Assembly: GCA_026874595.1 (NCBI GenBank)
Contig: CM049306.1
Location: 51,038,019 to 51,102,018, forward strand
Direction of reading: 5' to 3'
DNA length: 64,000 bases
Source of the DNA: Sipunculus nudus
Taxonomy: Eukaryota; Annelida; Sipuncula; Golfingiida; Sipunculidae
Part shown: positions 6,386-53,857 of the stretch, piece by piece
Numbering within the stretch: position 1 is the first letter of the stretch
Layout: every line of letters starts with the position of its first letter
Notes under the pieces: model-generated
What the model was told of the DNA's origin: nothing
Seen by the model: only the letters and a program-made list of their open reading frames with translations
Database searches by the model: none
Made by a program: the position numbers and the translations under genes

Positions 6386-6655
6386 TTAAGATGCAGCCTC
6401 CAGCAGACGGTATTGTTCATGACAACTGTCCTGTTCACTAATTTTGGCAGATTTATACTTATTTTCGTGATCCTCCTCCATGGATAGGAGTCCGTCTGAT
6501 TCAGTCTCATCAGCGTTGTTGATGCTGACGTAGTACTGCACACTTCCCATGGCTTTAAAGTATTTCATGGCCGTTTCATTGTTGCTAATCGCTACCTGAG
6601 GAACCTTCAACACTTTTTTCTTCAAAAAGTTGTCCACAATCCAGAAAATAATGGC
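6386..6655 (-). CDS. STIMATE: STIMATE coding exon 7 (last membrane helix, C-terminal tail, stop)
   Basis: 270 nt including the TAA stop, with acceptor tttttgtag. It begins [18 protein letters not shown], completing the last membrane helix (human ALMFWVVDNFLMRK). A tail of about 75 residues follows, with an acidic stretch (DETESD, MEEDHE). The human tail likewise has acidic clusters but ends in a lysine-rich ER-retention-like signal. Here the end is RLLEAAS, with no obvious dilysine motif. Confidence 0.94.
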   Translation of the reverse strand, partial: AIIFWIVDNFLKKKVLKVPQVAISNNETAMKYFKAMGSVQYYVSINNADETESDGLLSMEEDHENKYKSAKISEQDSCHEQYRLLEAAS

Positions 6656-9600
6656 CTACAAAAAATATAATTTTTTTTCTCTGTTATACCAATTTGACAA
6701 AATAAATGCAAAATGGTTTGAAAATGTTTCAGTGGTATGCCTACATTGTTACTTTTTTTTATGACCAATAATCATTATATTATGATAGCTGATTGTTTAA
6801 CCTGGGCCAGTTGTTGACATTAACATTCCTTTAAATGGCCAGCCATAAGTAACAGTGAGGTATGGATGATGGTTTAACTACTAGGCTTATTTAAGCTATA
6901 CTTACATTAACTATAAATGGAATGATAAACATCACAATCACAATCTCCAAGTGAGGGTCTTTGATGGGTGACATGATGAACCTGCGCACCTGAAATCACA
7001 GAACATTAAAAACATGACTAAAAGTTCATGAAACTAGGGCACTGACATGTCATGAAGAATCTCGTAATTACAGAGGAAACATCAATTATGGACCCTTCTC
7101 TACTCTGGACCCTTGAGGCAGTCCTATGATAAATATACTGAGTCATCAGTAACCTCTTTATAATGGACTCCTAAATATGACAGTCAAAAACAATATCCTG
7201 CCAGTGTCAATAACTGGGAGATTTTGTAGGATTTTTACAAAGGAAAAGTTATCTTTAAGGTGCTACACTGTGATTCATCCTACAAATTGGAAAATTGGGT
7301 CACAGTGTCCTCATTTTAAGTCACATCTCTTCATTAGATATGACAGCATGTATAATAATAGGGCCTTTAATATTTCTACTTTCCATAGAGTTGCCCACAC
7401 TTTCACTTTACATGTACTTTCATTAATAGAGAGGGTACCCTCAAACAAACACTTCTGCATGGCTTTGAAATAAATCTTGTCAACCACTTCCTTATTTGAC
7501 ATTGTCTTTCACTGAGGAAATATTATATTCCCTTCCAAATACAAATATAAACCTTTAACTGGCAATCATCAGATATAGATATGGCATACAAGGATCTCAC
7601 TATGAATATCAAATGTTTCATTTGATCACAAAACAGATTTTTGTCACAAGGAATTTCACAAGTTCCATTTTGCAACTGTGATGAGTAGCTAAAGATTCTG
7701 ACATAGTACGTGTCCTACATTTATAAACAGATTAAAAAAGTTGTCTTGCAGTTTAATAAAACTACAAGTCTATTTAAAGTGACTGAATGTAAACTGAAGT
7801 TCTTTGGTGAATATAGGCAGGAGCCTGTAGTATTCAAACATAGGAGAATACAAGACAACAGATAGAAGGGTTGAAATAAAAATAAACCCACATGCCCTAG
7901 GCCCCTTGCTTGAAATTTTTACACCTATAAGCATATTGGGCCTGTAGTAAATATGTTTTTAACTGCATAATGAATGTTTCATTAATACAAATTTTCCTTC
8001 ATGGAACTAGATCTGAATTTATCAATACTGATTATCCAGATATGTAACTGCTAACCTACCTCATGCCAGAAGTGAAAGAGAACCAGAAGACTCATGAGGA
8101 TCTTCTCCACCAAGATGACTAGTACATAGAGAGCACACTGTCCCATCCACGCATTACACTGAGGAGGTGATCCTGGAAAATACAGAAAGACAACTCTGCT
8201 AACTAAGAAAACCCATTATACTCCACCAAGATGGAGAGCACACTGTCCCATCCACGCATTACACTGAGGAGGTGATCCTGAAAAATACAGAAAGACAACT
8301 CTGCTAACTAAGAAAACCCATTATACTCCACCAAGATGACTAGTACATAGAGAGCACACTGTCCCATCCACGCATTACACTGAGGAGGTGATCCTGGAAA
8401 ATACAGAAAGACAACTCTGCTAACTAAGAAAACCCATTATACTCCACCAAGATGACTAGTACATAGAGAGCACACTGTCCCATCCACGCATTACACTGAG
8501 GAGGTGATCCTGAAAAATACAGAAAGACAACTCTGCTAACTAAGAAAACCCATTATACTCCACCAAGATGACTAGTACATAGAGAGTACACTGTCCCATC
8601 CACGCATTACACTGAGGAGGTGATCCTGAAAAATACAGAAAGACAACTCTGCTAACTAAGAAAACCCATTATACTCCACCAAGATGACTAGTACATAGAG
8701 AGCACACTGTCCCATCCACGCATTACACTGAGGAGGTGATCCTGGAAAATACAGAAAGACAACTCTGCTAACTAAGAAAACCCATTATACTCCACCAAGA
8801 TGACTAGTACATAGAGAGCACACTGTCCCATCCACGCATTACACTGAGGAGGTGATCCTGGGAAATACAGAAAGACAACTCTGCTAACTAAGAAAACCCA
8901 TTACACTCCACCAAGATGACTAGTACATAGAGAGTACACTGTCCCATCCACGCATTACATTGAGGAGGTGATCCTGGGAAATACAGAAAGACAACTCTGC
9001 TAACTAAGAAAACCCATTATACTCCACCAAGATGGAGAGCACACTGTCCCATCCACGCATTACACTGAGGAGATGATCCTGAAAAATACAGAAAGACAAC
9101 TCTGCTAACTAAGAAAACCCATTATACTCCACCAAGATGACTAGTACATAGAGAGCACACTGTCCCATCCACGCATTACACTGAGGAGGTGATCCTTGAA
9201 AATACAGAAAGACAACTCTGCTAACTAAGAAAACCCATTATACTCCACCAAGATGACTAGTACATAGAGAGCACACTGTCCCATCCACGCATTACACTGA
9301 GGAGGTGATCCTGGGAAATACAGAAATACAACTGTTATCTAAGAAAACCCATTACACTCCACAAAGATGAAAAGAACATAGAGAGCACACTGTCCCATCC
9401 ATGCATTACACTGAGGAGGTGATCCTGGAAAATACAGAAATACAACTGTTAACTAAGAAAACCCATTACACTCCATCAAGATGACTAGTACATAGAGAGC
9501 ACACTGTCCCATCCACGCATTACACTGAGGAGGTGATCCTGAAAAATACAGAAAGACAACTCTGCTAACTAAGAAAACCCATTATACTCCACCAAGATGA

Positions 9601-12432
9601 CTAGTACATAGAGAGCACACTGTCCCATCCACGCATTACACTGAGGAGGTGATCCTGAAAAATACAGAAAGACAACTCTGCTAACTAAGAAAACCCATTA
9701 TACTCCACCAAGATGACTAGTACATAGAGAGCACACTGTCCCATCCACGCATTACACTGAGGAGGTGATCCTGGGAAATACAGAAAGACAACTCTGCTAA
9801 CTAAGAAAACCCATTATACTCCACCAAGATGGAGAGCACACTGTCCCATCCACGCATTACACTGAGGAGGTGATCCTGAAAAATACAGAAAGACAACTCT
9901 GCAAACTAAGAAAACCCATTATACTCCACCAAGATGACTAGTACATAGAGAGCACACTGTCCCATCCACGCATTACACTGAGGAGGTGATCCTTGAAAAT
10001 ACAGAAAGACAACTCTGCTAACTAAGAAAACCCATTATACTCCACCAAGATGACTAGTACATAGAGAGCACACTGTCCCATCCACGCATTACACTGAGGA
10101 GGTGATCCTGAAAAATACAGAAAGACAACTCTGCTAACTAAGAAAACCCATTATACTCCACCAAGATGACTAGTACATAGAGAGCACACTGTCCCATCCA
10201 CGCATTACACTGAGGAGGTGATCCTGAAAAATACAGAAAGACAACTCTGCTAACTAAGAAAACCCATTATACTCCACCAAGATGACTAGTACATAGAGAG
10301 CACACTGTCCCATCCACGCATTACACTGAGGAGGTGATCCTGAAAAATACAGAAAGACAACTCTGCTAACTAAGAAAACCCATTATACTCCACCAAGATG
10401 ACTAGTACATAGAGAGCACACTGTCCCATCCACGCATTACACTGAGGAGATGATCCTGGGAAATACAGAAATACAACTGTTAACTAAGAAAACCCATTAC
10501 ACTCCACCAAGATGACTAGTACATAGAGAGCACACTGTCCCATCCACGCATTACACTGAGGAGATGATCCTGGGAAATACAGAAATACAACTGTTAACTA
10601 AGAAAACCCATTACACTCCACCAAGATGACTAGTACATAGAGAGCACACTGTCCCATCCACGCATTACACTGAGGAGGTGATCCTGAAAAATACAGAAAG
10701 ACAACTCTGCTAACTAAGAAAACCCATTACTCTCCACCAAGATGACTAGTACATAGAGAGCACACTGTCCCATCCACGCATTACACTGAGGAGGTGATCC
10801 TGAAAAATACAGAAAGACAACTCTGCTAACTAAGAAAACCCTTTACACTCCACCAAGATGACAAGTACACAGAGAGCACACTGTCCCATCCACGCATTAC
10901 ACTGAGGAGGTGATCCTGGGAAATACAGAAATACAACTGTTAACTAAGAAAACCCATTACACTCCACCAAGATGACTAGTACATAGAGAGCACACTGTCC
11001 CATCCACGCATTACACTGAGGAGATGATCCTGGGAAATACAGAAAGACAACTCTGCTAACTAAGAAAACCCATTACACTCCACCAAGATGACTAGTACAT
11101 AGAGAGCACACTGTCCCATCCACGCATTACACTGAGGAGATGATCCTGGGAAATACAGAAATACAACTGTTAACTAAGAAAACCCATTACACTCCACCAA
11201 GATGACTAGTACATAGAGAGTACACTGTCCCATCCACGCATTACACTGAGGAGGTGATCCTGGGAAATACAGAAAGACAACTCTGCTAACTAAGAAAACC
11301 CATTACACTCCACCAAGATGACAAGTACATAGAGAGCACACTGTCCCATCCACGCATTACACTGAGGAGATGATCCTGGGAAATACAGAAATACAACTGT
11401 TAACTAAGAAAACCCATTATACTCCACCAAGATGACTAGTACATAGAGAGCACACTGTCCCATCCACGCATTACACTGAGGAGATGATCCTGGGAAATAC
11501 AGAAAGACAACTCTGCTAACTAAGAAAACCCATTACACTCCACCAAGATGACTAGTACATAGAGAGCACACTGTCCCATCCACGCATTACACTGAGGAGA
11601 TGATCCTGGGAAATACAGAAATACAACTGTTAACTAAGAAAACCCATTACACTCCACCAAGATGACTAGTACATAGAGAGTACACTGTCCCATCCACGCA
11701 TTACACTGAGGAGATGATCCTGAAAAATACAGAAAGACAACTCTGCTAACTAAGAAAACCCATTATACTCCACCAAGATGACTAGTACATAGAGAGCACA
11801 CTGTCCCATCCATGCGTTACACTGAGGAGGTGATCCTGAAAAATACAGAAAGACAACTCTGGTTACTGAGAAAACCCATTATACTCCACCAAGATGACTA
11901 GTACATAGAGAGCACACTGTCCCATCCACGCATTACACTGAGGAGGTGATCCTGGAAAATACAGAAAGACAACTATGCTAACTAAGAAAACCCATTACAC
12001 TCCACCAAGATGACTAGTACATAGAGAGCACACTGTCCCATCCACGCATTACACTGAGGAGGTGATCCTGGAAAATACAGAAAGACAACTCTGGTTACTG
12101 AATAAAAGATTAATTGATACCTACTCAGAAAATCCCTGATTACGGTTAGATTAATTTAACCCAGGCTCAGTGACCTTGACCTATTTTTCAAGGTCACAGG
12201 GCTAAAAATAGTATGTTTTTCCAGACTGACAATTTATATTTTCTTCTCATCTATAAGAAGTACAGAATTATGGATGCAATTCCTTTTATAACATCTGGTT
12301 CCAAACATTTTCTGTGACTGCTATATGAAAGTTGCAAAAAGTCTAGATTTTATTTGGTACAGTGCTTTATGGTATATTTGTGATTGAACTGAAGTGGAAG
12401 TCTTAAATTAGCACAGGTTCTCTTAAAAAAGA

Positions 12433-12463
<31 letters not shown>

Positions 12464-15400
12464 TATAGTATTTGTATAATGCCAATTCTCTGATGGTCGG
12501 ACTCACAGCGCAATTCACACACACACATACCCACATACAATTTCATGGAAATCTACTCCCTGTGCCTAACCCAGAAAAAAATTATACATATTAATTACCA
12601 AAAGCTTGCCGAAAGAGATACGTTTTTAACTTAGTTTTAAATGATACAAGAGTTGGAGATTTTCTAAGTGTAATGGGAAGTGTATTCCAAACTTTTGGGG
12701 CTATGAAACAGAAGGTACATTCACAGATTTTAATATTCAATTTGGTACTTTAAGAAGATTTCCGCCAGCCAAGCACAGCATACGCAAAGGCCAATGGGTA
12801 ATTTTTTCAGTCAAATATGATGGAAGTGAGTAATCAAAATGGCGGTAAACAAAAACAGCAATTTTGTATTGCGGTACTTGATGGAAAGCCAATGGAGCTG
12901 TTTCGCAGCGGGGTGACGTGGCCGGTCTTACGCTTCTTAAGAATGAGATGCGCAGCATTATTCTGGACCATCTATAGCTGCGAGACTTGCTCTGCAGGTA
13001 ACCCAGCAGGAACTGAATTATAGTAATCCAGGCGAGATATTCCATCTGAGCCTGAAATCAAAAGACTTGCTGGTGGATATCTGGCAAGTGCTTGTCAGAT
13101 CAGTGTTTTATGTTGACTGGTTTACCTGCATGGTGGTTTACTTTATGTAAATTAACAGTATATGGATATGTGACCTGCACATTTAATAAATCTTTAATAG
13201 TGGATACATGACTAAAGCTGAATTTATTACTTACATGGTAATATACCAATCTATCAAAATAAACCTAATTTTCCTAACTTTTGTGTCAGCAATTTAACAT
13301 TAATTAAGCTAATCTGAACAATTCATCTGGGTAATTAAATGTGAGCTGGCCTGTGTCATTTTTTGGCTTATACTTTCAACACTGAGTGTACACATGGGAA
13401 ATCAAAGGCCAAACAAATGGCAGAAAACACATTTTAGCAATGCTACCAGCAGAATACAGCCATGACTGCTGTTTTAAATGTCCATTTTTTTATTCTTTTT
13501 TCACAAGAGGTCATTTGTAATGACACAGGTGTTGGTAGTATTGCTAGGTTCATGCTCTAATAGTTGCTCAATATGCTATAGTCCGTCCCAGTACTCGTGT
13601 CCGCATGTTTTTCCAGAATAATTTTTTATACAAGTAAAGCAGTGTAAACCTTTCTTGTCCAATGGTTGCAGGAGCTATTCCGCCGACTACCTGCATAAAA
13701 AGTAATACCTTACCTTGCCTTGATTTTATATGAGACAAATAATCCAAAATATGACAAAAAATGCTACAGCGTTTACGACTTATTCCATACCTAAGAACTG
13801 ATAATAAACAAGCCAGTCAAACTTATGACGTCAGTCAATTGATGGTGACGTGCGACCGATCACAGTGACGTCTTTGTGACGTCACTGTTGTCTAACAAAC
13901 ACCAAACGCAGCCATAGACATGGAAAGTGTGACATGGAGGAATGTACTGTCTAGCAGTGCCGGGAAGACGCCATTCACGGTATTTCAGCAAAAATAACGC
14001 AAAAGAGTCGCAAAGTAAATACGTTTTTCATGATATATAAAAACTTTACACAAAATCGGCGGAATATCTGTATATCTGCTTCAGGCCAAAGGGCATTTTT
14101 AAAGAATATTTTAAAAATAATTATCACGAAAAAACATGCGGACACGGGTACTGGGACGGACTATAAACTCATGATATGAAATGGCTGAAATGAAAATGAA
14201 AATCACCCTGGTGATATGAAGGTTCACTCAGTTACTGAATGAAAATAAGGAACTTATATGGCATCAAGATGCAGGATAATTTATTATTCTGATGAGTAAA
14301 TCAGAAAACTGGGTTGCATTTTCATGAAGTTAACCTTCCATATAATCACAAAATAAACACAAGTGTTCCACTTCATGCACTACAATATCAACAAACTTCA
14401 CAAAAGATAGATATAGAGCTCAGGAGTATCTCTCTTTGTTTACTCAAAGGCCGCTGAATGACCACAGGAGCCCCCTTATAACTAACTGAACATTTTCTCT
14501 TCCCATGAGCACACATGGTGAAGCCCATCATTCTTTTCTGATGGAGGGAGAAGTAGATTACATCCTTCAGGATGATGACTGAAGTCTGTTGTTACCCTCA
14601 TACACCATGTGGAGTTTTATTATTTTTTTTTTTTGGGGGGGGGGGGGGGGTCTTCAGTATGCATTATTATTATTGCTCAGCTTGTAAAATCTATAAATCA
14701 CAAATGCCTCTTGGTGTAGAACTACTACCACAGAGATTTATTCATTAGTAAAACACCACAGCCTTTGGATTTAATGAAATTTCTAGTTAAGCACACAGGG
14801 TTAGCAGTCTTGACTGTCATGGAATTGGTCATGTGACGCACAGTATATACCAGCAAGCATCACAGCTGGCTTGTTTACAGAATAGCTTGAATTCACCTCC
14901 CTTCCCTCTTGTGCTACCCTTTTATTAAAAAAAAATTTATTTCCCTTATTCTGGACGTTGCTGATGGAGACTTTGTACCCAACCTTCAGTGCTCATGCAT
15001 TTCAGTTTAACAGTGTCATAATTCATTATAGTCTCTTTTCTGTAGGTTCTCTGTATTCTGGTCTATATACTCCTCATATCCTACAATGATCTGATATATT
15101 GCATAAGCCAAGTTAATAAGGGATATGTAACCTTTTTGCTGTCATTTCAGACACACTTGTATATGTTAGTGATGTTTGCAGGTGGCATAGATGTCTGTTC
15201 ATGTTTCTACAATTTTGTCATATTAAAATGACATTTAATCATCTGTACTGTGTTGATGGTGTTTGCTGCATACATAAACACTTATTCTGTCAACATAAGA
15301 TGTTAACAAATAATAGTCTTGCCACAGTCTGATCCACCTGTAGGTGCCCATTGAAATTTGGCGATTATCCTCTTAAACTTAAACATTATCACACAATATG

Positions 15401-18400: not shown

Positions 18401-21400
18401 CGTTGCCATAAAGACAGAGTTTCAGTTTGGGTTGTAAGTTCACATGTATTCTTTTGTGTAAATTCATCATATGTAGCCTAATGTTAAGATTATAGGCTGT
18501 ATACTACGATATGGATCCAACATGATGTAACACCACTGCGATGGATTCCTCAGTATGGCTTGTATCATGACTCAAGTTAGGCTTACCAGCCAAATATAAT
18601 TGCCTACTCAGTCGTGTTTTCAAAGCTCGAATAATGAATGAGCCACTTCAACTGGTTTGATCTGGCAAGGTTTAGCCAATCAGATGCTGATTAACTGATA
18701 TCTCGCCAGTTATGATTTGCTTTACATATGCTAGGGCACTGACTATAACTTGATTACTGACAGGTCAGGAAGGGCCCCGCAAAAGGAACAAAGACTTCCA
18801 GTGTGGGCTGAGCAATGCTTGAAAAAATAAAATAAAGGACCTGATTACATTCAGACACAGAGGGAACTGGCCCAAAACAGTATTTAAACATCTGAACAAA
18901 GATATGAAGGTCAGTGATAGTTGTGTATGAAGGTGTAACAGTGGAGCATCCCAAGCAACATGCAGAGGCATAATTACATCTGATGTATTAAACCTGGTCA
19001 GCATATTATTATTAAACAGTAGACCTTGACCTTTAAACTTGTGATTTCGAATTCAATATGGTTCTTCTCCTATTGTTAGGTAATCAAAAAATGAAAGATT
19101 TTGGATGAAACATTAACAATGCCTTCATAATCTTTTTAAAGATGTGGATCCTGTGACCTTCACCTGTGACCCTGTGACCCCTAAATCAAATTGGTCCTTA
19201 CATTCGTGGTGGGCTATTAATAAGTCAAGTTTGAACTCCAAATGTAACACAAAATTGGAGATATCTTCCAGAAATGAATTTGTGGACAGATGGCTCCTGT
19301 GACCTTGACCTTTGACCATGTGACCAAATCTTCCCCTATCAGGAGGTGAGCTATATGTGGCAGACGGATGGTCTAGGATGAGAATTTGGCTAAAAATACA
19401 TCTGCAAACTTTTTAAAGATGTGGTCCTGTGACTTCAACCTTTGATCTCAGGACCCCTAAATCAATAGGGTTCTTGTTTTAGTGGTGGGCCACATAAAAG
19501 TAAAGTTTGAAATCCAAATGTAAATTCCAAACTGGAGTTATAATCTGGAAACGAATATGTTGAGATTGCTAGTCGGATGTCAGACCTTCTGTTTGATGGT
19601 CATATATTGTCAACATATATATATGATACAGGGAAATATGATGATTTTAATACAATATTTGAAGGTATATATACCTTTTGCAATAATGTGAGTTATCTCA
19701 TACTATTAGTTCATTTTGGCTGAATACTGGTACAATAATTGTTCCAGCAATACAATCCTGGTACACACATTTACCAACTCCAATTCACCTGCTTTATACG
19801 TTGTTATGGTTCTTTGTGTGTGTAAACACAGTCCACTAGTGTATGTTTACCTCAACAAAATGTGAACATAAGTCTAATATTGTGCAAAAACAATTACTCC
19901 AAAACCAGGAAAGGAAACATGAAAGAAGAACAAGTGACCCATGGGTCATGACGCTCAGCCAACTGACATGTTGATAATATGTCCTTGCACAGACAACAAA
20001 TTAAGATAGGTGGCATCATTGTTCATGCATATTAGCTTAATTTCATCAAGAGCCATAAGCACAACAAATTTGATGACAATCCAACCAGCCTTACACGAGG
20101 AATCTGGCAATTTGTGTGTATTCTGCATTGTTTCTGGGGTGCTCAAACATACCCCAAAACTCTAAGAATACAGGCTTCTGTGACCCAATTTCAGGTTTCT
20201 GGGGAGAACTTTTGAGGAACTCTCAAGATGTCAAGTTAGAAGATTCTGGGCCCCATGGTTATTATTTGTGCCCTACTTTGGTAATGAATTTTCAATTATT
20301 CTGAGGGGTGCTTATAAGCCCCATAGCTCAGAAAATATGGGTAACAGAGACCTTAATTCATGTTTCCAAGGAGACTTTTCACAGATCTCCCTGGATGTCA
20401 TGTTTGAAGATTCTAGGCCCATGTTTACAATTTGAGCCCTGTTAAGGGACGACCACACATTTGAAGGTCTCATAAATAGAGAAATAAATTGTGTTAAAAT
20501 TTTAAAAAAAATTAGGATGGCTGGATGGACAACGGACAAAGGGTGATCGCTATAGCTCAGATGACTTACAGTCAGCTGAGCTAAAAATCAGGATTTATGA
20601 AGTGTCCCGGTATGGCCACAATGTGGTGTACATGAAATATTTGTTTTGCGCCACTGCTCCCAGTACAAGCTTATTTCTAATTGTGCACAGGAGTGAGCAA
20701 GCAGTTTTAGAAAAACAAAACTGGCAGATACCTTTATATTTTTAAGAGGAAACACTATATTTCAATTTTTAATATATTAAATTTAGGAGAACAGGTGACT
20801 TTGACTTTGTATCACAATGTTTTGGTACACTAGTGAATAATTACAGAACTAGGAAACAGATGTAAAATATCATGTCTGGCCCTCAGTGACCACTGGTCAG
20901 TACTCACCATATTCACCAAAGACAAGTGTGTAGTAGCCCTTCTTGACCACTACCAGTTGTATAAGCTTGAGTCCCACATATATAACCAGCAGTCCCAAAG
21001 TTGAGTCCAGCAGAAAACTGATCACATACCTACAAACAGACAAACAGCTGATTAACAACTCAGCATACACAATCAGCAAGATTTTCAGGACTTTCAAGGA
21101 CAATATACCCCCCCGTACATCTGCTTTTTATGGACCAGCCTCCATATTTGAAATTTAAAATTTCTGAGGAAAAAAGTGTTAATGCAGATGATTGTCTCTT
21201 CTTTCTTGCTGCTGAATTGACCTCACCACCACGGCACATATGCGACGCCCTTTTCACCTGATTATGATAATGAGACCTCAAACAGGTTTTCCATGCCCAT
21301 GGTAGCGAGAGCTCTTTACAACACAATAGTGACATCACAAAAGTTGATGACGTAAGATGTTGCATTGATGACGTTATCAACTGGAATCGCTATATATGTC

Positions 21401-24400: not shown

Positions 24401-27400
24401 AAACTTTGCACCTTGCACTAATCTGTGATAATGGTCATGATCAGTTGTTGTACAGGGAATCACTAGCCTTCATTAAGTTTGACTAATTAACAGATCACTC
24501 AAATTGCCTGTTAGTTAAAATTACTCAGCCTGATGGCTGGTTTAAATGACCCTACAAAATATCTTAAACCCGGTAAATCATATTCCCTGATAATGTATAG
24601 TTAGGCCACACCATAAATAGTGTTATAAGGAATGGCAAATCCATATTCTTCATGCATAATTTTTGTGTATGAGCACAAAGCTCTGGGTATCAATGTTGCC
24701 AATTGCTGCCCATGGTGCATGGGCATAACATAAACCAGTCAATATAGGGGGGAATGGGGGGTATATATCTCCCTAACATAGTATCCGCATAACTTCGTTT
24801 TGGTGGATACAATTATAGACTTTGGTGCTATTTATGAATTTACTATGACTTATGGCTTAGAATTAACTTATACTGTAAACATAGTACCTTATTTTCTAAA
24901 ACCTTATACTTACTTATACTTAATTACCTAATTAATCTAAAATTTAGATAATCTTTTGCAATGAAACAGATCATGGTAAAAAAAAGTGGTTTAGTTTACA
25001 AAAACATTGATCTTAGTAATGTAGATTCTCAGTACACAAGCCGCTGAGCAACTTCAAAAGGAATTGACTTATAATTTATATTTAAAATTATAATTTTTAG
25101 GTACTGGTAACATATGCTGTAGGAAGAACTTCATATCTCTTAAGTTTCCTGATTGAAAATGATATGTAATACTTTATCCATAAAATAAGAAGAAGATTTA
25201 AATGTGAGGACTGCTTGATTTTGCTTTGGTTTAACCAGGATCATTTTCATGGAAAACAAACATGTAAAGTGTAACCAAAAGATCACTAGTTACATAGCTG
25301 ATAAATCAGAAAGTCAGTCATCTTAAAATTAACCCACTGTGAATTTTTTACAGTTTAGATTGTTTAAATTATTGTAACACAATTCCAAATTTGGGGCAGA
25401 TCCAAGATTTGGGGGAGAAGATTACTGTTTCACCGAGGGATTAAAGCCCTCTATAAGTCCACAACTCACTGAAGGGAAAAAAAAGGGGGGGGGGATGTTT
25501 TGCCTTTAAAATTTTGGAAAAACTCCAGTAACACAAGTAATTTGTCTCATTTAGAGAGGATTTTAAACCCGTTACTCCATCACCCCAATCCCCAGGATTC
25601 ATCCCCATATATATCTAGTGTGTGGGTGTTATCATTGTTATCTTGACCACTTCCCCCACTCAGTACACACTGCACCTCAAAATACATGAAATAGAGTGGA
25701 GTACACAAGTCTGTGTGTGATTTATGTAATATGGGCCTATTAGCATTTTTTTGGTGGCAACAACATTCCTTGTACAGTTATATGGATCCTTTTGTTCAGA
25801 GATAGTTGTACTAGTTATACTTTATCACCTCTCTCTTTGAGCTGTATCAATCTGCACCTAGTGACTCCAGCTGAGTAGGTGTGTGACAGATTAATTATCA
25901 TATATACTTTTCCTGATACATATGAACATCAAATCAATCTCAAAACCATGACTAAGTTGACACCTTGAGTGTATTTGAAGTACCCTTTGTATGACCAGAA
26001 ACAATTTAAGGAGGTTAAGTTAGTAAAAACTTAGGCCATACAAAATAAATTTATTGTTCTATCGATTTGCCACTGCCACTTTCTTTGTGCATCAAAATAT
26101 TTTTATCAAATTCAATCCTGATCCTTGTAAATTTTTGTGACTTGTGCTATAGCACAAATTCTCTAAAAAAAGGCATGAAAAATATACTAAATTTTGTTTT
26201 GATTAAATACACCATATCAAGAACTGGAGTAAATTTTTGCATTCTCTAGGCTAGCTGACAAAATTTCACACATACATGTCTCAACCATATAAAAAAAAGT
26301 GCAAACTAGCACCAGATTTTTTAGAGCCAAGAATCTGTAGAACAATATTTTTGTTTGTGTTCGTGCCTGGGCTTGTTATATTTTCTGAATACAGATTGGC
26401 TGGTACTTCAAAAATAGGCAAAAGAAAGTAACTGAAGATTCAGTGTGTCACATGTCTGAGCAGATTTAACTATGCATGTGGTTATGAGAGGTTCCATAGG
26501 GTTAGCTGATGAGAATGAGGGGCAAGAGAAGGAAATTGTGAAATTTAGTGTAATTACTATAGAAAACATACCATGTGCATGGATCACCAGTGAACAAATC
26601 TGCGAGGAAAACATTGGCAAAATGGATAACTGCAGCACCAATCCCTTGCTTCGAGGTATCAAAGAACCTGCAATGAACAGATACAAGCAAACCTTATCAC
26701 ATGTTGTCACTGAAATAGTATGTAACTTAAAACTTGATGTATTGGTATGGCTAACCACGGAATCTGATTAAGCCTTACCCCATCTAAGCATATATACACA
26801 ATGAACATCCAATGAATAAAGGTAAATCATAACATCCAACATCTGTTGCCTTAATGAGGTTTGTGTTAGTAATTATCTTTCACTTACACTCTCTAAAACA
26901 GCTTGTCTTCCGGCATAGTTTAGCTAGGACTTGGATATATTGTATCTTTTCCTAAACTTCAATTATTCATCAAACAGTAGTTACTGACAGCATATATTTG
27001 TCCTGTTGACTTCTTTAAAGTCAGATTTCATCATCATCATTATCAGAAGGTAGCCTACTGGTTTCAGACAGCTGATTCGTATGCAGGGGCGGATCCAGGA
27101 TTTTGGAAAGGGGAGGGTCACATCTAGGAAGACTGAAAGCAAACCTAAAAAAGACCCTCTGGTCTGTGAAAGAGGGGGTCAAGGTCGCAAAATTTAGTTT
27201 GAAACCCCCCCTTAAAAAGCTTGTTTTGGCTCCAAAAGGGGAAGGGGGAGGGGGGGGGGGGGTTAGGACCCCCTTGACCTCCCCTGGATCTGCCACTGGT
27301 ATGCATTTGACATTTCAGTTGTACATAGAGTTTTCACAGGATAGAGAAAATTATGATAAATTTCAGTCATATCATAATGTTATTTTCATTTCAGATTATT

Positions 27401-33400: not shown

Positions 33401-36400
33401 GAACAGTTTTACAGTTTAAACCAATTAACCGTGGTTGTCATAAAGGAACTTGAGAAGGCTCCAAGCCAAACGTTTAAGTCAAACATCCATTTAATCTTTA
33501 AATTTTCATGTTCATTCTTACCATATGTATTTGTGAGTTTGAAGTTACCTGAAGTATAAATTTCATGTCACATTTGGTAACTAGAATGAGTCTGTTTTTT
33601 TATTGCAAAAGCACAGATTTGCACCCCTGCCTATGGGTTTCCAAACCCCAAATTTAAGGAAAAAAATATGAATACTTCAACAGTCAGAGGTTCACAAAAT
33701 TCCTAGATTTCTGAAGAACTGATCTTGAAGGTTAATATCAAGGTCACCAGTTTTTTAACTCATTTGAGATTTTGGTAGAACAATTCATGTATTCTTATAT
33801 CGAATTTCACCAAAACATTTTGATTGGTTCAAAGATTATAGTATTAAAAAAAAGATGAAGGTCAAGGTCACCAGTTTTTGAACTAATCCAACAATTTGGT
33901 AGAAAGATTTTACAGGTCAAAATTCTTTACAATATTTTTAGTGATTCAAAACTTGAAAAGTTTTGGTTGTCACAAATATTTTCTGTTTCTGCTAATTTGA
34001 CCTCGCTTCAATTTTCTATTTTCTTTGAGAACTTGAGAACAAATTTGAGGAAAGAATATGCAGTGCTTCAAAAGTTATTCACAAGAAATTGTAGAAATAA
34101 TAAGCACCAACTCCACTGATTTGACCTTGAAGATCCACGTCAAGGTCATAAGTTTTTGTACTTTTCACAGAACATGGTTGAAAAAATTATTGTTTCATTT
34201 TAAAGAAAAGTTAGTGGGTTAAAAAAAATTAATTTTCAGCCTATTTTACCTAGGTGGTGAAGATCAGGGTCACCAGTTTCGGAACTTGTCCAAGATTCTG
34301 GTAGAAACAAATAAATTTCAAATTTCATGGACATATATTGAGTGATTCAAAAGTTATTGTGATCACATGAAATGGCCAAGACAACCACTACAGATGACGA
34401 CAGACGTTTGGGTCTATATGTCTCCCTCCATGGGAGGGGAGACATAATTACAATAACTAAAACCTCTGTTCACAGATGGAATTATATACAGAATACCATC
34501 TGCAAGTAGATCAGCTCAGTATTAACACCTGATTATCATATGTGAAAAAGTACAGTGAAGTTCAACCTGGAATGAAATGAAAAGCTGTTTGATTGCTGCA
34601 TAAGCCCCTGATTTCTCCATGGAGAGACTAGCCCAGTAATTTTTAGCTTCTGTGCTAATTCTGTAGGCTGATTATGGGTGCTTAATGTTACTGCCAGAAT
34701 CGTTTCTAAATTATCAGCTTCAGGGACAATCCAGATAATGGCAGATGGATTACATCACTGATTATGGATGGATGTATTCCATGAGGCTAATTCTGATGAG
34801 ATCAGCTGGCAAAACAGTTTCAAAGTGCACTGATCAGTAACTTGTTATGTAAATTATCCTGTTGTTTAAAATATTTTTTAAATACCTTTTTTTTTATTTT
34901 CAAAGCAAAAGCAACATAATCTAATTCTATTCTCTTGTGGTTATTATTAAAAAGTAATCTTTAGTGATCCCAGTTTAAAATTGGCTTCATCCTCTGAATC
35001 TTTCATTTGACGTCTATGCATTTAGAAATTTCTTAATTAGTTTTCAAATGATATTGACCATGATTTCAGTTGGAGTGATTGGGAGAAAGGGGGGGGGGGG
35101 GAGCAGACACAAAAAAATTAGATAATATCACTAGTATCCTGTATAAGATAAACATGTTCAAAATCTTTCACCTTAATGATTTCCAGAGCAATCCATTGAC
35201 CTGTTTTCGAGAAATGTGAGGTCTGTATGTTCTAACCCACATTTCAAACTATTAAAGGGCAGGGGCGGATCCAGGATTTAGGAAAAGGGGGGGTCCAACC
35301 CAGGAGGACTAATGAAAATCCTAAAAAAAAAGGTCATCACGTCTAGAAAAGGGGGGTCCAGGCCGCAAAATTACGTCTAAAACCCCTTAAAAAAGGTTGC
35401 TTCGGGTGAAAAAGGGGGGGTCCGGACCCCCTGGACCCCCCCTGGATCCGCTTCTGAAGGGTCAAGGTAACACTCAAGGTTAAAGGTCGTTCTCCTAACT
35501 TGAATACCTAGGCTTCATCTTCTGACCCATATCTATGCATGCAGGCATTGTTTTTTTAATTATTGTTTTTAGGTGGCTGTGATGAAAGTAAACTACACAA
35601 ACCAGAAACAGATTACACCACCATTCTTATAGGTTACACCACCAGTCTTATAGGTTACACCACCAGTCTTTTAGGTTACACCACTGGTCTTACAGGTTAC
35701 ACCACCGGTCTCCTGTAATAGGTAAACCTGTTCACAGTAATTTCAGGTGAATTAGTCAATTCACTGCAGAGATATGTGTGGTTTTAACCCAAAGCAGATG
35801 AACAGATGGACACTGTGCAAACATGGTTGCAGGTGGGGCCACCATTTTTTGTGTTTGTTATAAAGCTATCCAAGGGCTACATTTGTATAAAAAAATTTTC
35901 CTGATCGGTCAAACGGTTCCCGAGAAATGAGGGTTTATGTGTGGAAACAGACACACAAATGGACGCTGGGCAGAGAGGAAAGGTCAGAGGTCAACGCAAA
36001 TTGGTTAGGCCCCAGTTCACATGTGACCCAATAATTGGTGTAAGTTTTCGGAAAAATTGGTTCAGTAGTCTCAAAGGAGTTCTCCAGAAACGAACGTGGC
36101 GGCGGCAGAACCCCCTCAAAAACATAGTATCCGCAAAACTTCGTTTTGGCGGATACAAAAATACCAGTCTGCAGAAACTAATAAAAACACTTAATGGTCA
36201 ATATCCATGCAAAGAATCATGCTGATGTCTGCATTAGTTGTTCAGATACTTCAGCTTTTATAACAAATTTTCCATTATTTTGAGGGATACTTCGGAGTCC
36301 TATACCTTGAAGGATATGGGTAACAAAGACCTAATTTCAGGTTTCCACAGGCACTTTTCATGGGCCTCCTTCCATGACAAGAATGAAGATTCTAGGTCCA

Positions 36401-39400
36401 GTTGTTACAATTTGTGCCACATTAACAGATGACAGCAACCTTAAAGGTCTAAAAAAATAGAGAAAAAAATTTGATAAATTGAATAAAATATAGGTGGCAC
36501 CACCAGTCTGCAGAAACAGATGAAACACTCCATAATCAATGTCCATGCAAAAAATCATGGTGATCTCTGCATTAGTTGTTCAGATACTTCAGCTTTTGTA
36601 TCAAATTTTCCATTATTCTGAGGGATACTTCGGAGTCCTATAGCTTGAAGGATATGGGGAACAGAGACCTAATTTCAGGTTACCACAGACACTTTTCATG
36701 GGCCTCCTTGCATGACAAGAATGAAGATTCTAGATCCAGTTGTTACGATTTGTACCCTGTTGACAGATAACCACATCTTTAAAGGTCTCAAAAATAGAGA
36801 AAAAAATTCGTAAAAATTTGAAAAAATACAGGTGGCGCACCCAGTATACAGAACCTGATGGAACACCTCATGATCAATATGTCTGCAAAAAATCATAGCC
36901 ATCAGTGTTGTAGTTATTGAGATACTGCAGTTTTTGTATCAAAATTTTCATTATTCTGGGGGGTATTTTGGAGCCATACAGCTTAAAGGATATGGGTAAC
37001 AGAGACCTAATTTCAGGTTTCCAGGGAGACTTTTCATGGGTCTCCCTGTGTGTCAAAAAAAAAGGTTCTAGGTCCAGTTGTTATGATTTGTGCCCTGTTA
37101 ACAGATGTTCATATCTTTAAAGGTCTCAAAAATAGAGAAAAATTCGTAAAAAAAACCCGAACAAATACAGGTGGTGCCACCAGTCTGCAGAAACTGATGA
37201 AACACTCCATGATCAATATCCATGCAAACAAATATGGTGATCTCTGCATTATAGGTTTAGATACTTCAGCTTTTGTATCAAATTTTCCATTATTCTGAGC
37301 TGTACTTAGGAGTGCCATAGCTCAAAGGATATGGGTAACAGAGACCTAATTTCTGGTTTCCATGGAGACTTTTCATAGGTCTCTCAGTGTGTCAAGAATG
37401 AAGATTCTGGGTCCAGTCTTTACTATTTGTGCCCTGTTAACTGATGTTCACATATTTAAAGGTCTCAAAAATAGAGAAAACAATTTGTAAAAAATCGAAA
37501 AATACAGGTGGCTCCACCAGTCTGCAGGAACTGATGGAACATCTCATGATCAATATGTATGCCAAAAATCATGTAGTTAATGAGATAGTTAAGTTTTTGT
37601 ATGATATTTTTGACTATTCTGGGGGGTACTTTGGGGCCCCATAGCTCGAAGGATATGGGTAACAGAGACCTAATTTCTGGATTCCAAGGAGATTTTTCAT
37701 CGATCTCTTAGAATCCCAAGTTACAAGATTCTAGGTCCAGCGGTTACGATTTGTGCCTGGTTAACGGACAGACAGACGGACGGACGCCGGACAAAGAGTG
37801 ATCGCTATAGCTCAGATGACTTTCAGTCAGCTTAGCTAAAAAGTATAAGTTATGAGGACATGATCTCCCTCATTAAAAAAAAGTCAAGCAGAAGTCTTTT
37901 AGCTCAGTGGTAGAGCAGACGATCGGCCATCATCAGGTCATGGGTTCAATTAAGATTTGAAGGGAACCAAATGTTCTGTGTATTCATGTTGAATCTATCT
38001 ATTCACTGCATGGCTATATGTAGTGCTACAAGCATAGTTGTGGTAGTAATGACCAGTATATCATGATTATATTGTTTTAATGACCTAAAAGTAAAAAAAA
38101 ATGTATGCCATACATAGACTAAGGTACACTAAACTGCAGATCATATAAATATAAAATTTACTGGTAGTAACGCAATCAAACAATGATAGGAGTCCACAAA
38201 CTAGGGACCCATGGGTCTTGACGCTCAGCCGAATTTGTCTAGAAGGATATTTTTAAAGAAATTTTTCAGAATGACAGTGCTGTTACCTTAATCAATGACC
38301 TTGTGACCAAAAAATTTTAGAACTTATAATCCTTGAACTTGCAGCATTTAGATTATTGTAACAATATTTTATGAAATTGACCCTGACCTCTGACCAGGTA
38401 ACCTCAAAATCTTCAGATTTCCTCACTTTGGGCAAGTAAGCCATGTGTGAAAGATGGAAAGTTTGGGATTAAAAGTTTGATTTACAATGCATCCACAATC
38501 TATTTAAATATGTGGCTCCTGTGACCTTCAACTTTGATCTCTTGACCCTGAAAATCAAAATGAATTTACTTGAGTGGTGGGCCATTATTAAATCAAGTTT
38601 AAAGCCAATCTGTCTATCCAAAGCAGAATTATCATCCATAAACTAATTTGTGAATGAACGGGCCCTGTGACATTGACCTTTGACCCTATGACCCCAAAAT
38701 CAAACAGAATCATCCCCTATTGGCATGTAAGCAATATCTTGAAGATGGAAGTTTTGCGATATAAAAGTTTGGCATCAAATGCATACACATTCTTTTTAAA
38801 GAAATGAGTCCTGTGACCTTGACCTTTGACCGCTGGACCCCAAAATTGACAGGGTTCTTACTTAAGTGGTGAGCCATATGCAGGATGGTAAGTTTGGGTT
38901 GAAAAGTTAGGTTTAAAATGCAGCCATAACCTTTTTGAAAAGGTGAGTCCTGTGACCTTGACCTTTGACCTTGTGACCCCAAAGTCATATAGGTGCTTGC
39001 TTTAGTTGTGGGCCAGATGTATGTCAAAGTTTGAAATCCATGTCTTTATCCAACTTGAGTTATCATCTGGAAACAAATTTAATGGATTGACAGACGGACA
39101 GCTAGACAGACAGACAAACAGACAGGGTGATTACTATAGGGTATCCACTTGTGATCAATAAACTATCCAAGTTTTGGGACACTAGACGTAATCACAGCTG
39201 AGAAACTGACATGATTGTTGTCATTTTATAGTAAGAAAAACCCCTGAAAAACTAGAATACGGGTAGTCGACAAGCGACTACGTGTATCCGCCAAAATCAG
39301 AGAAGGACGGGTGAAGTGAGGCATGGATTGAGTGGCAAGGGGATATAGAGTTACATGTGTTAAATATTAGAATGGATCTCTGCCACATAAACATGATTGT

Positions 39401-42400
39401 AGGTGGCGCCACCTGTTATTTGAACGAGAAACTATCCAGGATATATACACAAGCAAAATTTCATGTGGAAAAGTCAAACCACTGCAGAGATATGAGTGAT
39501 TTTATCCCACAGCAGACAAACAGATGGACGCTGTGCAAAAACAGCTGCAGGTGGCGCCACCATTTTTGTGTATGTTATAAAGCAATCCAAGGGCTACATT
39601 TGTGTAAAAATATTTTCCTGATTGGTTGAATGAGTCGGGAGATATAAGCATGGATGTCTACAGCGTGAACGTGAATGTAGGTGGCGCAACCTGTCATAAA
39701 ATCAAGAAAGCTATGCGGGATGTATAAGCATGCTGAATTTCAGGTAATTTGGTCAAACCACTGCAGAGAAATGAGTGATTTTAACAGAAGGCAGACAAAC
39801 AGATGGACGCTGTGCAAAAATGGCTGCAGGTGGCGCCACCATTTTTGTGTATGTTATAAAGCTATCCAAGGGCTACATTTGTGTAAATGTTTTTTCCTGA
39901 TTGGTCAAACGGTTCCAGAGATATGAGCTTGGATGTCTGCAGTGTTAACGAGAATGTAGGTGGCATCACCTGTCATAAAATTAAGAAAGCTATCCAGGAT
40001 GTATATGCATGCCGATATTTAGGTGAATTAGTCAAACCACTGCAGAGATATGAGTGATTTTAACCCCAGGCAGATGAACAAATGGACACTGTGCAAACAT
40101 GGTTGCAAGTGGCGCCACCTTTTGTTGTGTATGTTATAAAGCTATCCCAGGGCTACATTTGTGTAAATTTTTTTTCCTGATTGGTCAAACGGTTCCCGAG
40201 ATATGAGCTTGGATGTCTGCAGCGTTAACGAGAATGTAGGTGGCGCCACCTGTCTAAAATCAAGAAAGCTATCTAGGATGTATACGCATGCCGAATTTTA
40301 GGTGAATTAGTCAAACCACTGCAGAGATATGAGTGATTTTAACCCCAGGCAGATGAACAAATGGACACTGTGCAAACATGGTTGCAGGTGGCGCCACCTT
40401 TTGTTGTGTTTGTTATAATGCTATCCCAGGGCTACATTTGTGTAAAATTTTTTTCCGGATCGGCCAAACGGTTTCCGAGATATATGGGTTTATGTGTGGA
40501 GCGTTAACGTGAATGTAGGTGGCGCCACCTGTCATAAAATTAAGAAAGCTATCTAGGATGTATATGCATGCCGATATTTAGGTGAATTAGTCAAACCACT
40601 GCAGAGATATGACTGATTTTAACCCCAGGCAGATGAACAAATGGACACTGTGCAAACATGGTTGCAAGTGGCGCCACCTTTTGTTGTGTATGTTATAAAG
40701 CTATCCCAGGGCTACATTTGTGTAAAAATTTTTTCCGGATCGGTCAAACGGTTCCCGAGATATATGGGTTTATGTGTGGAGCGTTAACGTGAATGTAGGT
40801 GGCGCCACCTGTCATAAAATGGAGAAAGCTATCTAGGATGTATACGCATGCCGAATTTTAAGTGAATTAGTCAAACCCCTGCAGAGATATGAGTGATTTT
40901 AACCCCAGGCAGATGAACAGATGGACACTGTGCAAACATGGTTGCAGGTGGCGCCACCTTCTGTTGTGTATGTTATAAAGCTATCCCAGGGCTACATTTG
41001 TGTAAAATTTTTTTCCGGATCGGTCAAACGGTTCCCGAGATATATGGGTTTATGTGTGGAAACAGACGCACAAACGGACGCTGGGCAGAGACGAAAGGTC
41101 AGAGGTCAAGGTCACTTGGTTAGGCACCAGTTCACATGTGACCCGATAATTTGTGTAAGTTTCGGAAAAATCTGTCCAGTAGTCTCAGAGGAGTTCTCCG
41201 GAAACGAACGCGGCGGCGGCGGCGGCGGCGGCGGCGGAACCCGGTCAAAAACATAGTATCCGCAAAACTTCGTTTTGGCGGATACAATAATCATTAAAAT
41301 AACAAAAAAATACAGGTGGCACCACCACTTTTCGGGAACTGACAAAAGTAGTCAAGGTCAATATTCAAGGCAAGATTCATGACAATTAACAATTGACATT
41401 AATTATCAAGATATTAGAAGTTTGGTATCAATTTTTTTATTATTCTGGGGGGTACTTTCAAGCCCTATAGCTCAGAGAATATAGGTCACAGTGACCTAAT
41501 TTCAGGTTTCCGTGGAGATTTTTTAATGACCTTCCTGGATATTCACTAAGAAGTTTCTAGGACCAGCGGTTACAGTTTGTGCCCTGCTAATGGACGGCTG
41601 GATGGACAACAGACAAAGCGCCTATAACTCAGTTGACTAATAATGAACAGCAGAACAGTAATCAACGACAACAATTATCTGTTAAACAAAATACAGGCGA
41701 GCCCACTTTGTGTCATATCGGTTAATAGAAAATCCCGCTTATTGTCACATAAATCTGAAATCCCAAACCATTTCCGATATGAACAATGGTAAATCTGACT
41801 GTTTAATATCATGGAATATTGTCATATTCCCGTTTATTGTCATGCTTGGAAACCATGGCAGTGATACCAGATCGCAGTTAATATCACACCAGACGCCGAC
41901 ATGGCAATCAACGAGGCCAAGAGCCTGTAATCGGTCAGGCGTATCAAACGATCTCATCTCCCACCTGTGTGCGGCAGGCAAGGGCAGTGATGCATGCAGA
42001 TCAGTCCCCGTCAATTAGCTATTAGTCTTAAGGTACCACGGTAATCCAGATCATTGCATTTAGACTTCGTAAATTAACAAGGGCGATGTTTGTGATCACG
42101 TCATACATAATGAACTCCTGGCCTTTGCAAGGGTGTGGTTTACACCTCGGTGAAGTTTTGCCGAGGTTATATGAGGCACGAGCTCTAAACGTTGCTGGTG
42201 ACGGGAAATCCCCTTTAAGGTTCCACGAAAAGCTGGAGGTTTTGTGAGCACAGGAGGAGATACTCGGTCTAAAACCTAAATCGCGGCGAAACTTCAGCAA
42301 GTTTACAATGGCATGACGGTGCCCGCTCCCCCAATAGTCCTATCATAAAGACGTTCATGGAAGTTTGAGTCATTCATAAGATACCCGAAAATAAGGGGCA

Positions 42401-45400
42401 ATAGTAGGGGAAATAATTATTTAGTAAAACTGTTAGCCTACGCATAACGTTATAACCTTGCCGCATATTTCCAGACATTTGACCTCTTGACCCAGACGCT
42501 ACATGTTTTTTCTGTTAGCAAGTCGGATTTTTGTCAGTTATTGCGGCATGCGGCACAAAATTCACAGGAAATAAATTGTCAGGTGTGCATTAACGTAATT
42601 TGATATGCCGTTTTGCATTAAAAATATTCATAAACGTTTCTGTTTCCTTTTTGTTGATGATTTATTTAATATCATTTAATTGAGATATAAGGCTTCTTCT
42701 ACGACTCAAAAGGACATCGATGTTGAAGCCCGCATAATGTCACATCCTGGTTATTATCATAATTTATGCATGCACCACCGACATGACAATAAGCGGGCTT
42801 GACTGTATATGGAACTCTCTGATTTCATAATTTTAAAGGTGTGAGAGAGAAAGAGAGAGGGAGAGAGAGAGAGGGGGTGGAGAGAGAGAGAGAGAGAAGA
42901 GGTTGGAGGGGAGAGAGAGAAAGAGAGTGAGTGATTAAGGGACTTAATACATGACTGCGTGTGTGTAATACATCAATTATAATATCAGTCTCTTGGTTAT
43001 ATGACTACCTTGTCACTCACCATATTTTCCATGGTCTTCTTTCAGGCTTTGGTTCACAGTATCTTTTGACTGTTAAAAACAAAAGGACAAGAACCCATTA
43101 TTAAAAGAACAATGAGACAGTTAATCAACATGAAACATATTTTTTATCCATCTTTTAATATGTAAAAACATATCACAGTAATTAAATTAATGCAAAAACT
43201 CCCTAAAAGACCAATACTTCAAAACATATACAAGGCTGAAGAAAAAAAGGTATGGTTCTCAGGCACTTTATTCAGAAATCAGTGCAAGCGGGTGCTATTT
43301 AATTTTTTTACCGTTTTTTGTATGTTTCAATAAAAATGTCATATGATCAGGGAAAAAGATGAAAATAACAGAATTTTATGGCTAAACAGGTAAATGCACT
43401 ATATAACAAAGGAAATCTTATCAAAATTGTATTATTTATCTTTTTTTTTACCATACCTTTTATTTTTTTTGGCCTAACAACAAAAAATTTAAATATATTA
43501 CAAAAAATAGTGCTGATGATTAATGAAACAGTATAAAGTGAAATGTCCAGTATGTTAATGGTTATACAAAGGTTCGTAGGAAATGATAAGTGCTATTTAA
43601 CCACCAAACAAAGTTATATATAATTAATATTTGTAATGCTGGTATGAAAATAAATATTGCAAACTGAGTTGGTATTTTAGTTTAATTTGAGAAAATTGTT
43701 ATGTGATTAATAAAAGTATTTTTAAATAGCTGGCTAAACCAGGAAGGCAGACCTTCTTCATATACCCCTTTCACACGGCAAATAGAACTTGGTTTCAAAC
43801 AATTCTGAATGCACATTAGAGCATTCACACAGCAATCCAAAGCGTTTTCAAACCCTTTTGCCCAAATCATTTTGAAAAAGTTTTGTGTGTGAAAGGGGTA
43901 ATGATTAGGTCAAAGGGATTTTACCTAAAATTTATTTATACTGTTTCTGACAAAAGCATTCCATTTATTGGAAAGTCTGAAGTGTTTCATTTTCTGTAAC
44001 TAGTCTGTGTAGTTAATTAAGTTGGAAATGTGATTCATTGTGTCTCTTTTTTCTTTGGGACTTGATATTTCAACAAATGGCTATAAAATATTAATCACAC
44101 AAGATCATTATTGGGTTTAATTAATTACATGGCCTAGATTATCAAGTGAACTCTATGAAGCACCAATTAATGTAATTAATTCACCATATAAAAATGATTC
44201 CAAGTGTTTTGCCAGTTTTCTTCAGCTAATGGCTTTCAAACTATCAGTGACCCATTGATTGTAACTGATCTGTTTATTCAGTAAGGAAATCTTCTATCAT
44301 ATTAATTGTTGATTCAATCATTTGGAAAAGATGTGTGGTTATTAAACATACTCAAGAAGTAGGTCATTAAATAGAATGTATTGTTTTATCAGTGTCAGAA
44401 AAACGTTGTGGCAATGATAACACCAGATATTAATTTATAACAAGAATATGAGGGAGTGGTATATGGGGATAATTTTATAGACCATCTAGGTTTGAGGTAA
44501 TCTGATATTAAACAGAGATTTTACATATAAATTAAAGGTGCGGACCAAATCAGCTAGCCCATCCCTGCACAATTTGGTTTATATTCAAACCACCACAGTA
44601 ACACAAAATATGCCACTTGTTACAAGTGGCCCATGGGCCATGTGGATCAGCTGAATGGAAGGAACATTGAGCAATCATTGGGTAATATGACTCCCAGAGT
44701 GCTCAAAATCATGCATTTTGCCAATAGGGACAGACTTATTTAATTTTTCCTTTCTCTGACCCCCCCCCCCCCCAAGTTTTTGCAATTTGGAAAATAAATA
44801 TAACAGTTTCCCTGTCGATATGTTATTGCGGCTGTTATGAGATGTGTCCATGAGTCGTAATATAAAGCCCTTAAAAACATAAACTTGTAAACCCCTCATA
44901 CAAAATGTGACCTACACAGCTTTAAGTCACAGCAAATGCCATGCCCATGGTTAGTGAAACATTTCCCCTTGTCTTTCTCATGACCATCTATAATCTGAGG
45001 ATCAGCAGAGGTAAGGTTTTCATCGGAGATCTTACTCAAGTCAAACCATTGAAATTATTCTCTTTCCCACTTTCTCAGTTCATCACTATCTAACCCGATT
45101 TCAGTTTTATGTATTAAACAGTTTTCTTCACGTAATGATGGACCGCTTACTTTCAAAACATCTAAGGTACAAACTGTAATATATTATATCAGCGGGGTGC
45201 ATATAGGGCACATATAGTTTCTATATATTCATTTCATCATCTGTAAAATTTGTATGGAAAAAAATTTTCATTTTTTTTAAATTTTGAAATATACTTATTT
45301 TTGTTTTCCCCTCCTTCTCCCCACCACTTTTCATTTCTTCATTCGAGAAACTATTTATTAAATATGTAAGGCATAGATATTAGATATAGGTAGCAGATTC

Positions 45401-53008: not shown

Positions 53009-53857
53009 AATTGGAAAAAGTCTGTGCCACCAAGCACTTTTGACCCCAATACAAACTAGACATTTCTTGGCACCGTATCCCCAGACAATTAATCCCCCCC
53101 CCCTCTTTAAGAATAGGCCCCCCATCTTCAGCAACAATTAATATCAGACCACACTCAAAGAAAAGGTCACTCTCATAGAAAAGGTCATGACCCCAATTTC
53201 GATTTACATCATCCCCTAACCCATGTCTATGTATATGCATATTATGAAAGAAATCTGTCCATTAGTTTTTGACTTATAATGCTCACATTACTGTTAAGTG
53301 GCAATGATGGGGTATTAGACGGCACAAAAACAAGTAAAAGAATAACAGATGGCGCTATCAGTTTCCGGTACATGACAACACTATCCAAGATCTTTGGTCA
53401 AGTTGATTTTTGGACCAATCAATGCATCCCTTATTGTCATATTAATGATTTTGTGTGATTTTCACCGTATATGGCATGTTCAAGGTAAAGGCCACTCTCA
53501 TAGGAAAGGTCATGACCCCAATTTAAATAAACATCATCCCATAACCCATATCTATGTATATGCATAATATGAAAGAAATCTGTCCATTAGTTTTTGACTT
53601 ATAATGCTCACAGTAGTGTTAAGTGGCAATGATGGGGTCTTAAACGGCACAAAAACAAGTAAAAGAATAACAGGTGGTGCCACCTGTTTCCGGTACATGA
53701 CAATACTATCCAAGATCTTCGGTCAAGTTGTTTTTTGGACCAATCCATGCATCCCTTATTGAAATATTAATGATTTTGTGTGATTTTCACCATATATGGC
53801 AATATTCAAGGTCAAGGCCACTCTAATAGGAAAGGTCATGACCCCAACATATATATA

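Follow-up and report, generated by a model that had tools for sequence, protein, structure and literature searches.

A 35-unit splice-acceptor minisatellite in the STIMATE gene of Sipunculus nudus, a long example of a mirage

STIMATE has a role in store-operated calcium entry. In Sipunculus nudus, an open STIMATE gene of seven exons with GT/AG edges, encoding 314 amino acids, lies on the minus strand of the window (the whole 64,000-nt stretch of DNA analysed here). The coding sequence starts with the ATG at 51906 in exon 1 (coding part 51696–51906) and runs through exon 2 (43021–43069), exon 3 (26572–26667), exon 4 (20908–21029), exon 5 (8060–8172) and exon 6 (6906–6989) to the coding part of exon 7 (6386–6655), which ends with the stop TAA at 6388–6386. 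The product matches PF12400 along the entire profile (positions 1–124 of 124; E 1.2e-35; 123.1 bits against a cut-off of 22). The match covers residues 117–238, and by arithmetic on exon lengths exon 5 codes for residues 160–197, within the match. Because exon 5 is 113 nt long, skipping it would shift the frame. A candidate second STIMATE gene was rejected: three of the four PF12400 matches in the genome are over the cut-off and lie in the present gene, and the fourth (C3:36676552; 19.7 bits, E 0.98) falls below it, shows by eye no STIMATE-like stretch among translations of at least 40 amino acids, and is treated as a chance match.

The boundary of intron 4 and exon 5 is spanned by a minus-strand tandem array running from about 12116 to 8106 and occupying the last ~3.9 kb of the 12,735-nt intron. 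Tandem Repeats Finder (TRF) reports a period of 116 with 33.6 copies and 95% matches (8234–12093, score 6810), and splitting the array at each GGATCA delimits 35 units, numbered here in transcription order (u01 to u35). This marker recurs every 105–116 bp across all 35 units; since no interval is twice that length, the pattern has not skipped any unit. Twenty-four units are 116 bp long, eight are 114 bp and three are 105 bp. Cut at the AG, the 116-bp unit consists of 49 nt of intron end and the first 67 nt of exon 5 (56 nt in the 105-bp units); the other 46 nt of the exon are unique. Every unit thus carries a polypyrimidine tract, an AG (35/35) and the start of exon 5, and the rest of the exon and its donor at 8059 follow the last unit only. 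A sequence-only reading of this DNA had proposed most of this anatomy: its 35-unit minisatellite holding a splice acceptor is recovered both by TRF and by the GGATCA split, exon 5 does occupy 8060–8172 (true acceptor AG at 8174–8173, in unit 35; donor GT from 8059), the exon 4 donor GT does start at 20907, and a single unit, the last, does continue into the remainder of the exon and a donor. Its 116-bp unit of intron end plus exon start also stands, but the division into 48 and 68 nt is corrected to 49 and 67 by the position of the AG.

Units differ from one another by 4.9 events on average, or ~4% (outer edge unit and four edge columns excluded), and the outer unit, which starts near 12116, has diverged over its first ~23 bases. 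With a 241-bp query, a whole-genome DNA search of a type that can miss common words reported 35 matches, none of them outside the array. That the array is false or mis-sized in the assembly has some precedent, since tandem arrays are often mis-sized. Amphioxus has minisatellite-like duplications of intron–exon boundaries, named mirages, in Adh3 and in the globin genes BflGb6 and BflGb9 (PMC3087553; Canestro et al., 2002, cited there), and the one in BflGb6 appeared aberrantly assembled in the amphioxus genome draft (PMC3087553). Against such an artefact, 25 of the 35 unit sequences are distinct, and the distinct units, their shared variants and the diverged outer edge look like real turnover; moreover, the array is a 4-kb element within a 110.9-Mb contig of an assembly of 153 contigs. 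We consider an artefact very unlikely.

Upstream of the true acceptor, 34 decoy acceptors (8278–12069, minus strand) place the last G of their AG at positions from 12068 down to 8278. All 34 have the AG and a pyrimidine tract, as the sequence-only reading had claimed, and in two of them (9992 and 9195) AAG replaces CAG. Splice sites were scored with human-type position weights, not weights derived from this organism; on this scale the true acceptor is equalled or exceeded by ten of the 34 decoys. Intron 4 contains 33 acceptor-like sites, the true site excluded, that on the same weights come within 2 bits of the true one or exceed it, and 32 of these lie within the array. Potential branch points give the true site no advantage: a branch-point-like TTAAC lies at -25 in seven of the 34 decoys and is absent from the true unit, where -46 to -15 holds no yTnAy motif and a looser pattern picks up only a TAAT at -44. 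These comparisons support the view that the true acceptor would not be set apart by its own sequence. If the acceptor met first were preferred, in a 5'-to-3' choice, most transcripts would use distal decoys and the gene would be largely silenced in the sequenced individual. In favor of this, the 21-nt acceptor sequence of the outermost decoy is identical to that of the true site, and this decoy and one other have a TAAC at -28 that the true unit lacks. However, the intact seven-exon frame and domain argue for a gene under constraint, and use of the distal decoys would imply exons 2 to 4 kb long; first-come choice is therefore given little credence.

Use of any decoy is predicted to lead to an early stop (34/34). 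In 30 of the 34 the stop is a TAG after ...GFS and in u02 it lies a codon further on; the three 105-bp units reach a frameshifted stop. The best donor-like site within the array scores 3.46 bits on the human-type matrix, versus 9.9 bits for the exon 5 donor (GTAGGT, 8059–8054, scored as GAG/GTAGGT) and 10.4 bits for the exon 4 donor (GTGAGT from 20907). With such a score, pseudo-exons contained within the array were rejected as unlikely. Upstream of the array, intron 4 holds 35 donor-like sites above 5 bits on that matrix. Because no decoy has a good donor of its own, a decoy exon would extend through the array to 8059, giving predicted exons of 218, 334, 450 and so on up to 4,008 nt, each with a premature stop. 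The sequence-only reading had described decoy exons that meet a stop just past the junction and have no donor; the stop is found in every case, but the lack of a donor does not hold, as each exon would reach the one at 8059. Since 218 and 334 nt are ordinary exon sizes, exon definition by itself may not exclude the nearest decoys. An RNA fold that hides decoys also finds no support at the last decoy plus exon 5, which folds no better than shuffled sequence (z 0.48, with 140 of 200 shuffles at least as stable).

Comparison of the units bears on whether the decoys do anything for the gene. With the diverged start of u01 and the edge columns excluded, variation is seen in 13 of the 49 intronic columns and in 13 of the 65 exonic ones, in exonic columns 45 and 48 only beside an 11-bp deletion. 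Both AG columns are invariant across units, and so are 36 of the 49 intronic columns; because similarity is this high, the unchanging AG is not informative. In the 32 units free of the deletion, five distinct exonic substitutions are synonymous and six change an amino acid (27% synonymous expected, p 0.17), and the decoy copies drift without clear coding constraint. No sign of selection for or against decoys was found in this comparison. It is conceivable that the array works as a splicing rheostat, in which decoys take a copy-number-dependent share of exon 4 junctions and the resulting premature-stop transcripts set STIMATE output, or yield a truncated protein ending ...LVE(C/Y)NGFS. Such a role would fit the presence of AG, pyrimidine tract and eventual stop in all 34 decoys and the ten decoy scores that equal or exceed that of the true acceptor. 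It also has a parallel in the variable number tandem repeat (VNTR) of human ABCA7, where exon 19 skipping rises and expression falls with VNTR length (PMC5954066), so a long array bordering an exon is not necessarily benign. Conversely, the uninformative AG, the drift of the decoys and the absence of a fold signal in the last decoy plus exon 5 speak against a rheostat, as do the amphioxus mirages, which are said not to interfere with splicing, the Adh3 data and the authors' own RT-PCR suggesting that it is undisturbed (PMC3087553). A rheostat is on balance very unlikely. The stronger form, a natural rheostat of variable copy number in which the number of decoys sets the premature-stop share and so adjusts store-operated calcium signalling from one individual or cell lineage to another, would be less probable again.

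The units also record how the array has turned over. The 11-bp exonic deletion, which shifts the frame, is common to the three 105-bp units, u34 (8222–8326), u27 (9023–9127) and u20 (9820–9924). These lie exactly seven units apart, a spacing that hints at duplication of a seven-unit block, with an offset test that is not significant. Two unit types alternate in u04–u11. None of the permutation tests of block structure reached significance (offset 2 in u04–u15, p 0.39; offset 7 in u16–u35, p 0.56; offset 1 in u16–u35, p 0.51). In amphioxus mirages, concerted evolution is described within a cluster with the boundary units excluded (PMC3087553). Here the edge of the outer unit u01 has diverged, and the inner unit u35, the true exon copy, has the same sequence as u30 and u33; repeat turnover therefore reaches coding sequence.

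At the unit junctions lies a short insert, GTGTAATGGG, whose best candidate templates are a stretch of 8–9 nt within the exon and an inverted match of 11 nt outside the array. Eight nt of the insert find a match in the exon, a length also reached by 271 of 20,000 random 10-mers, and the inverted match, AGTGTAATGGG, lies at 12667–12677 on the plus strand (equalled by 868 of 200,000 random 12-mers). Both tests were designed post hoc, once the insert had been seen, and the two templates compete; templating of the insert is suggestive only. Origin of the 116-bp unit from a dispersed repeat or transposon was considered and rejected: the unit has no match in 27 other stretches of the genome, and the genome search, of a type that can miss common words, reported the present locus only.

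Those 27 stretches, each 10 kb long and taken at round positions on contigs C1–C10 (270 kb), also give a background rate for tandem arrays. TRF finds in them 14 arrays with a period of at least 30 and at least 2.5 copies, two of them with at least 10 copies, and eight of the 14 have no match in the other stretches or in the window. Extrapolation gives ~74,000 such arrays genome-wide. If the genome has 200,000 acceptors, as assumed here, one would fall within ~1% of random 116-bp units, and by this rough arithmetic several hundred to a thousand acceptor-spanning arrays, mostly shorter ones, could arise before selection. Such arrays cover 15% of the bases of the window, versus 6.4% across the full set of 27 stretches and 3.5% across the first 18 of them. 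The window has further long-period arrays at 36163–37765 (338 bp), 39390–41044 (280 bp), 47308–49726 (288 bp) and 53155–53847 (325 bp). Among the matches listed, every one of these four finds a relative in one or more of 18 stretches sampled elsewhere, so they resemble dispersed repeat families; the 116-bp unit differs from them in this. One sampled stretch, C9:50000001–50010000, consists entirely of a 129-bp satellite (77.5 copies, 97% matches).

Taken together, we favor (at roughly 78%) a mirage minisatellite that was born locally, is carried as intron, and is tolerated since no acceptor but the true one has a good donor 113 nt away. Its birth would have been a tandem duplication that fused exon 5, at a point after ...CTTGGTGGA, with the end of intron 4, the insert of ~10 nt, which may have been templated, lying between them. 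To judge from the units, unequal exchange or slippage would then have amplified the unit to 35 copies and partly homogenised them. Exon definition would let the true acceptor win, being the sole one at 113 nt from a good donor, and small decoy exons would be unlikely, as no donor-like site within the array scores near the real donors on the human-type matrix. Leakage would be small, would go mainly to the nearest decoys, with their 218- and 334-nt exons, and would be cleared by nonsense-mediated decay, leaving the array near-neutral. We infer that exon 5 is spliced correctly. The gene that carries the array looks intact, because its seven-exon coding sequence is open and its PF12400 match exceeds the cut-off.

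Duplicated-splice-site experiments asked how a 3' splice site gets chosen. An intron with 35 near-identical acceptors, of which the last alone is correct, is a natural counterpart of such experiments, and RNA from this species would tell exon definition from first-come choice and show the extent of leakage. The locus also exposes coding sequence, since the first 67 nt of exon 5 lie in a minisatellite whose turnover reaches the true exon.

Arrays that duplicate a splice site have been described in other animals. The BflGb6 mirage is the closest in anatomy: its unit, as described in the amphioxus paper, joins the 3' end of an intron to the 5' part of the next exon and is thus also on the acceptor side (PMC3087553). 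By the same account, the two BflGb6 haplotypes have six and three units, in contrast to 35 units of ~116 bp in the single assembly available for the STIMATE array, and splice signals are found in many but not all amphioxus units, whereas the AG is present in 35/35 here. Mirage units are given as 10–72 bp in Adh3 and 150–160 bp in the globins (PMC3087553), and the 105–116 bp of the STIMATE unit falls between these ranges, length being no strict criterion. The genes differ, and splicing was checked by RT-PCR in amphioxus, whereas the STIMATE analysis used genomic sequence. Somatic instability has been reported for the Adh3 mirage (PMC3087553). On the donor side, the VNTR in intron 18 of human ABCA7 has a 25-bp unit, ranges from ~12 to 427 units and begins with the donor GT of exon 18 (PMC5954066). 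Like the STIMATE array, it is a large tandem array that includes the splice site of a coding exon, and use of the next unit shifts the frame; it differs in being described as intronic and in lying on the donor side. Retention of a single unit, which the paper's order of events puts at 2 ± 1%, is reported there as unaffected by VNTR size (PMC5954066). The human minisatellite of IFI6 (6-16, G1P3) likewise provides multiple splice sites at one exon edge (Turri et al., 1995, via PMC2572611 and PMC4526556), but it is on the donor side, and according to a citing paper two of its downstream units are used, giving three mRNA species (PMC2572611, PMC4526556). Intron gain by internal tandem duplication (Rogers-type model), discussed both for mirages (PMC3087553) and for repeats at exon edges within human segmental duplications (PMC2812944), is similar in that tandem duplication copies splice signals; it differs in that no new intron is evident in the STIMATE array, because the array has no good donor. 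In the literature searched, outside which most subscription journals fell and which did not cover Adh3 copy numbers, no acceptor-side example with so many units was found. The BflGb6 mirage, the sole acceptor-side example with a copy number to compare in the account consulted, has several times fewer units. The claim in the sequence-only reading that no standard feature class exists for such an amplified exon boundary fails in the face of the amphioxus mirages, which include an acceptor-side array of the same anatomy, and of the donor-side ABCA7 VNTR. The STIMATE array is a long new example of the known mirage class, not a new kind of element.
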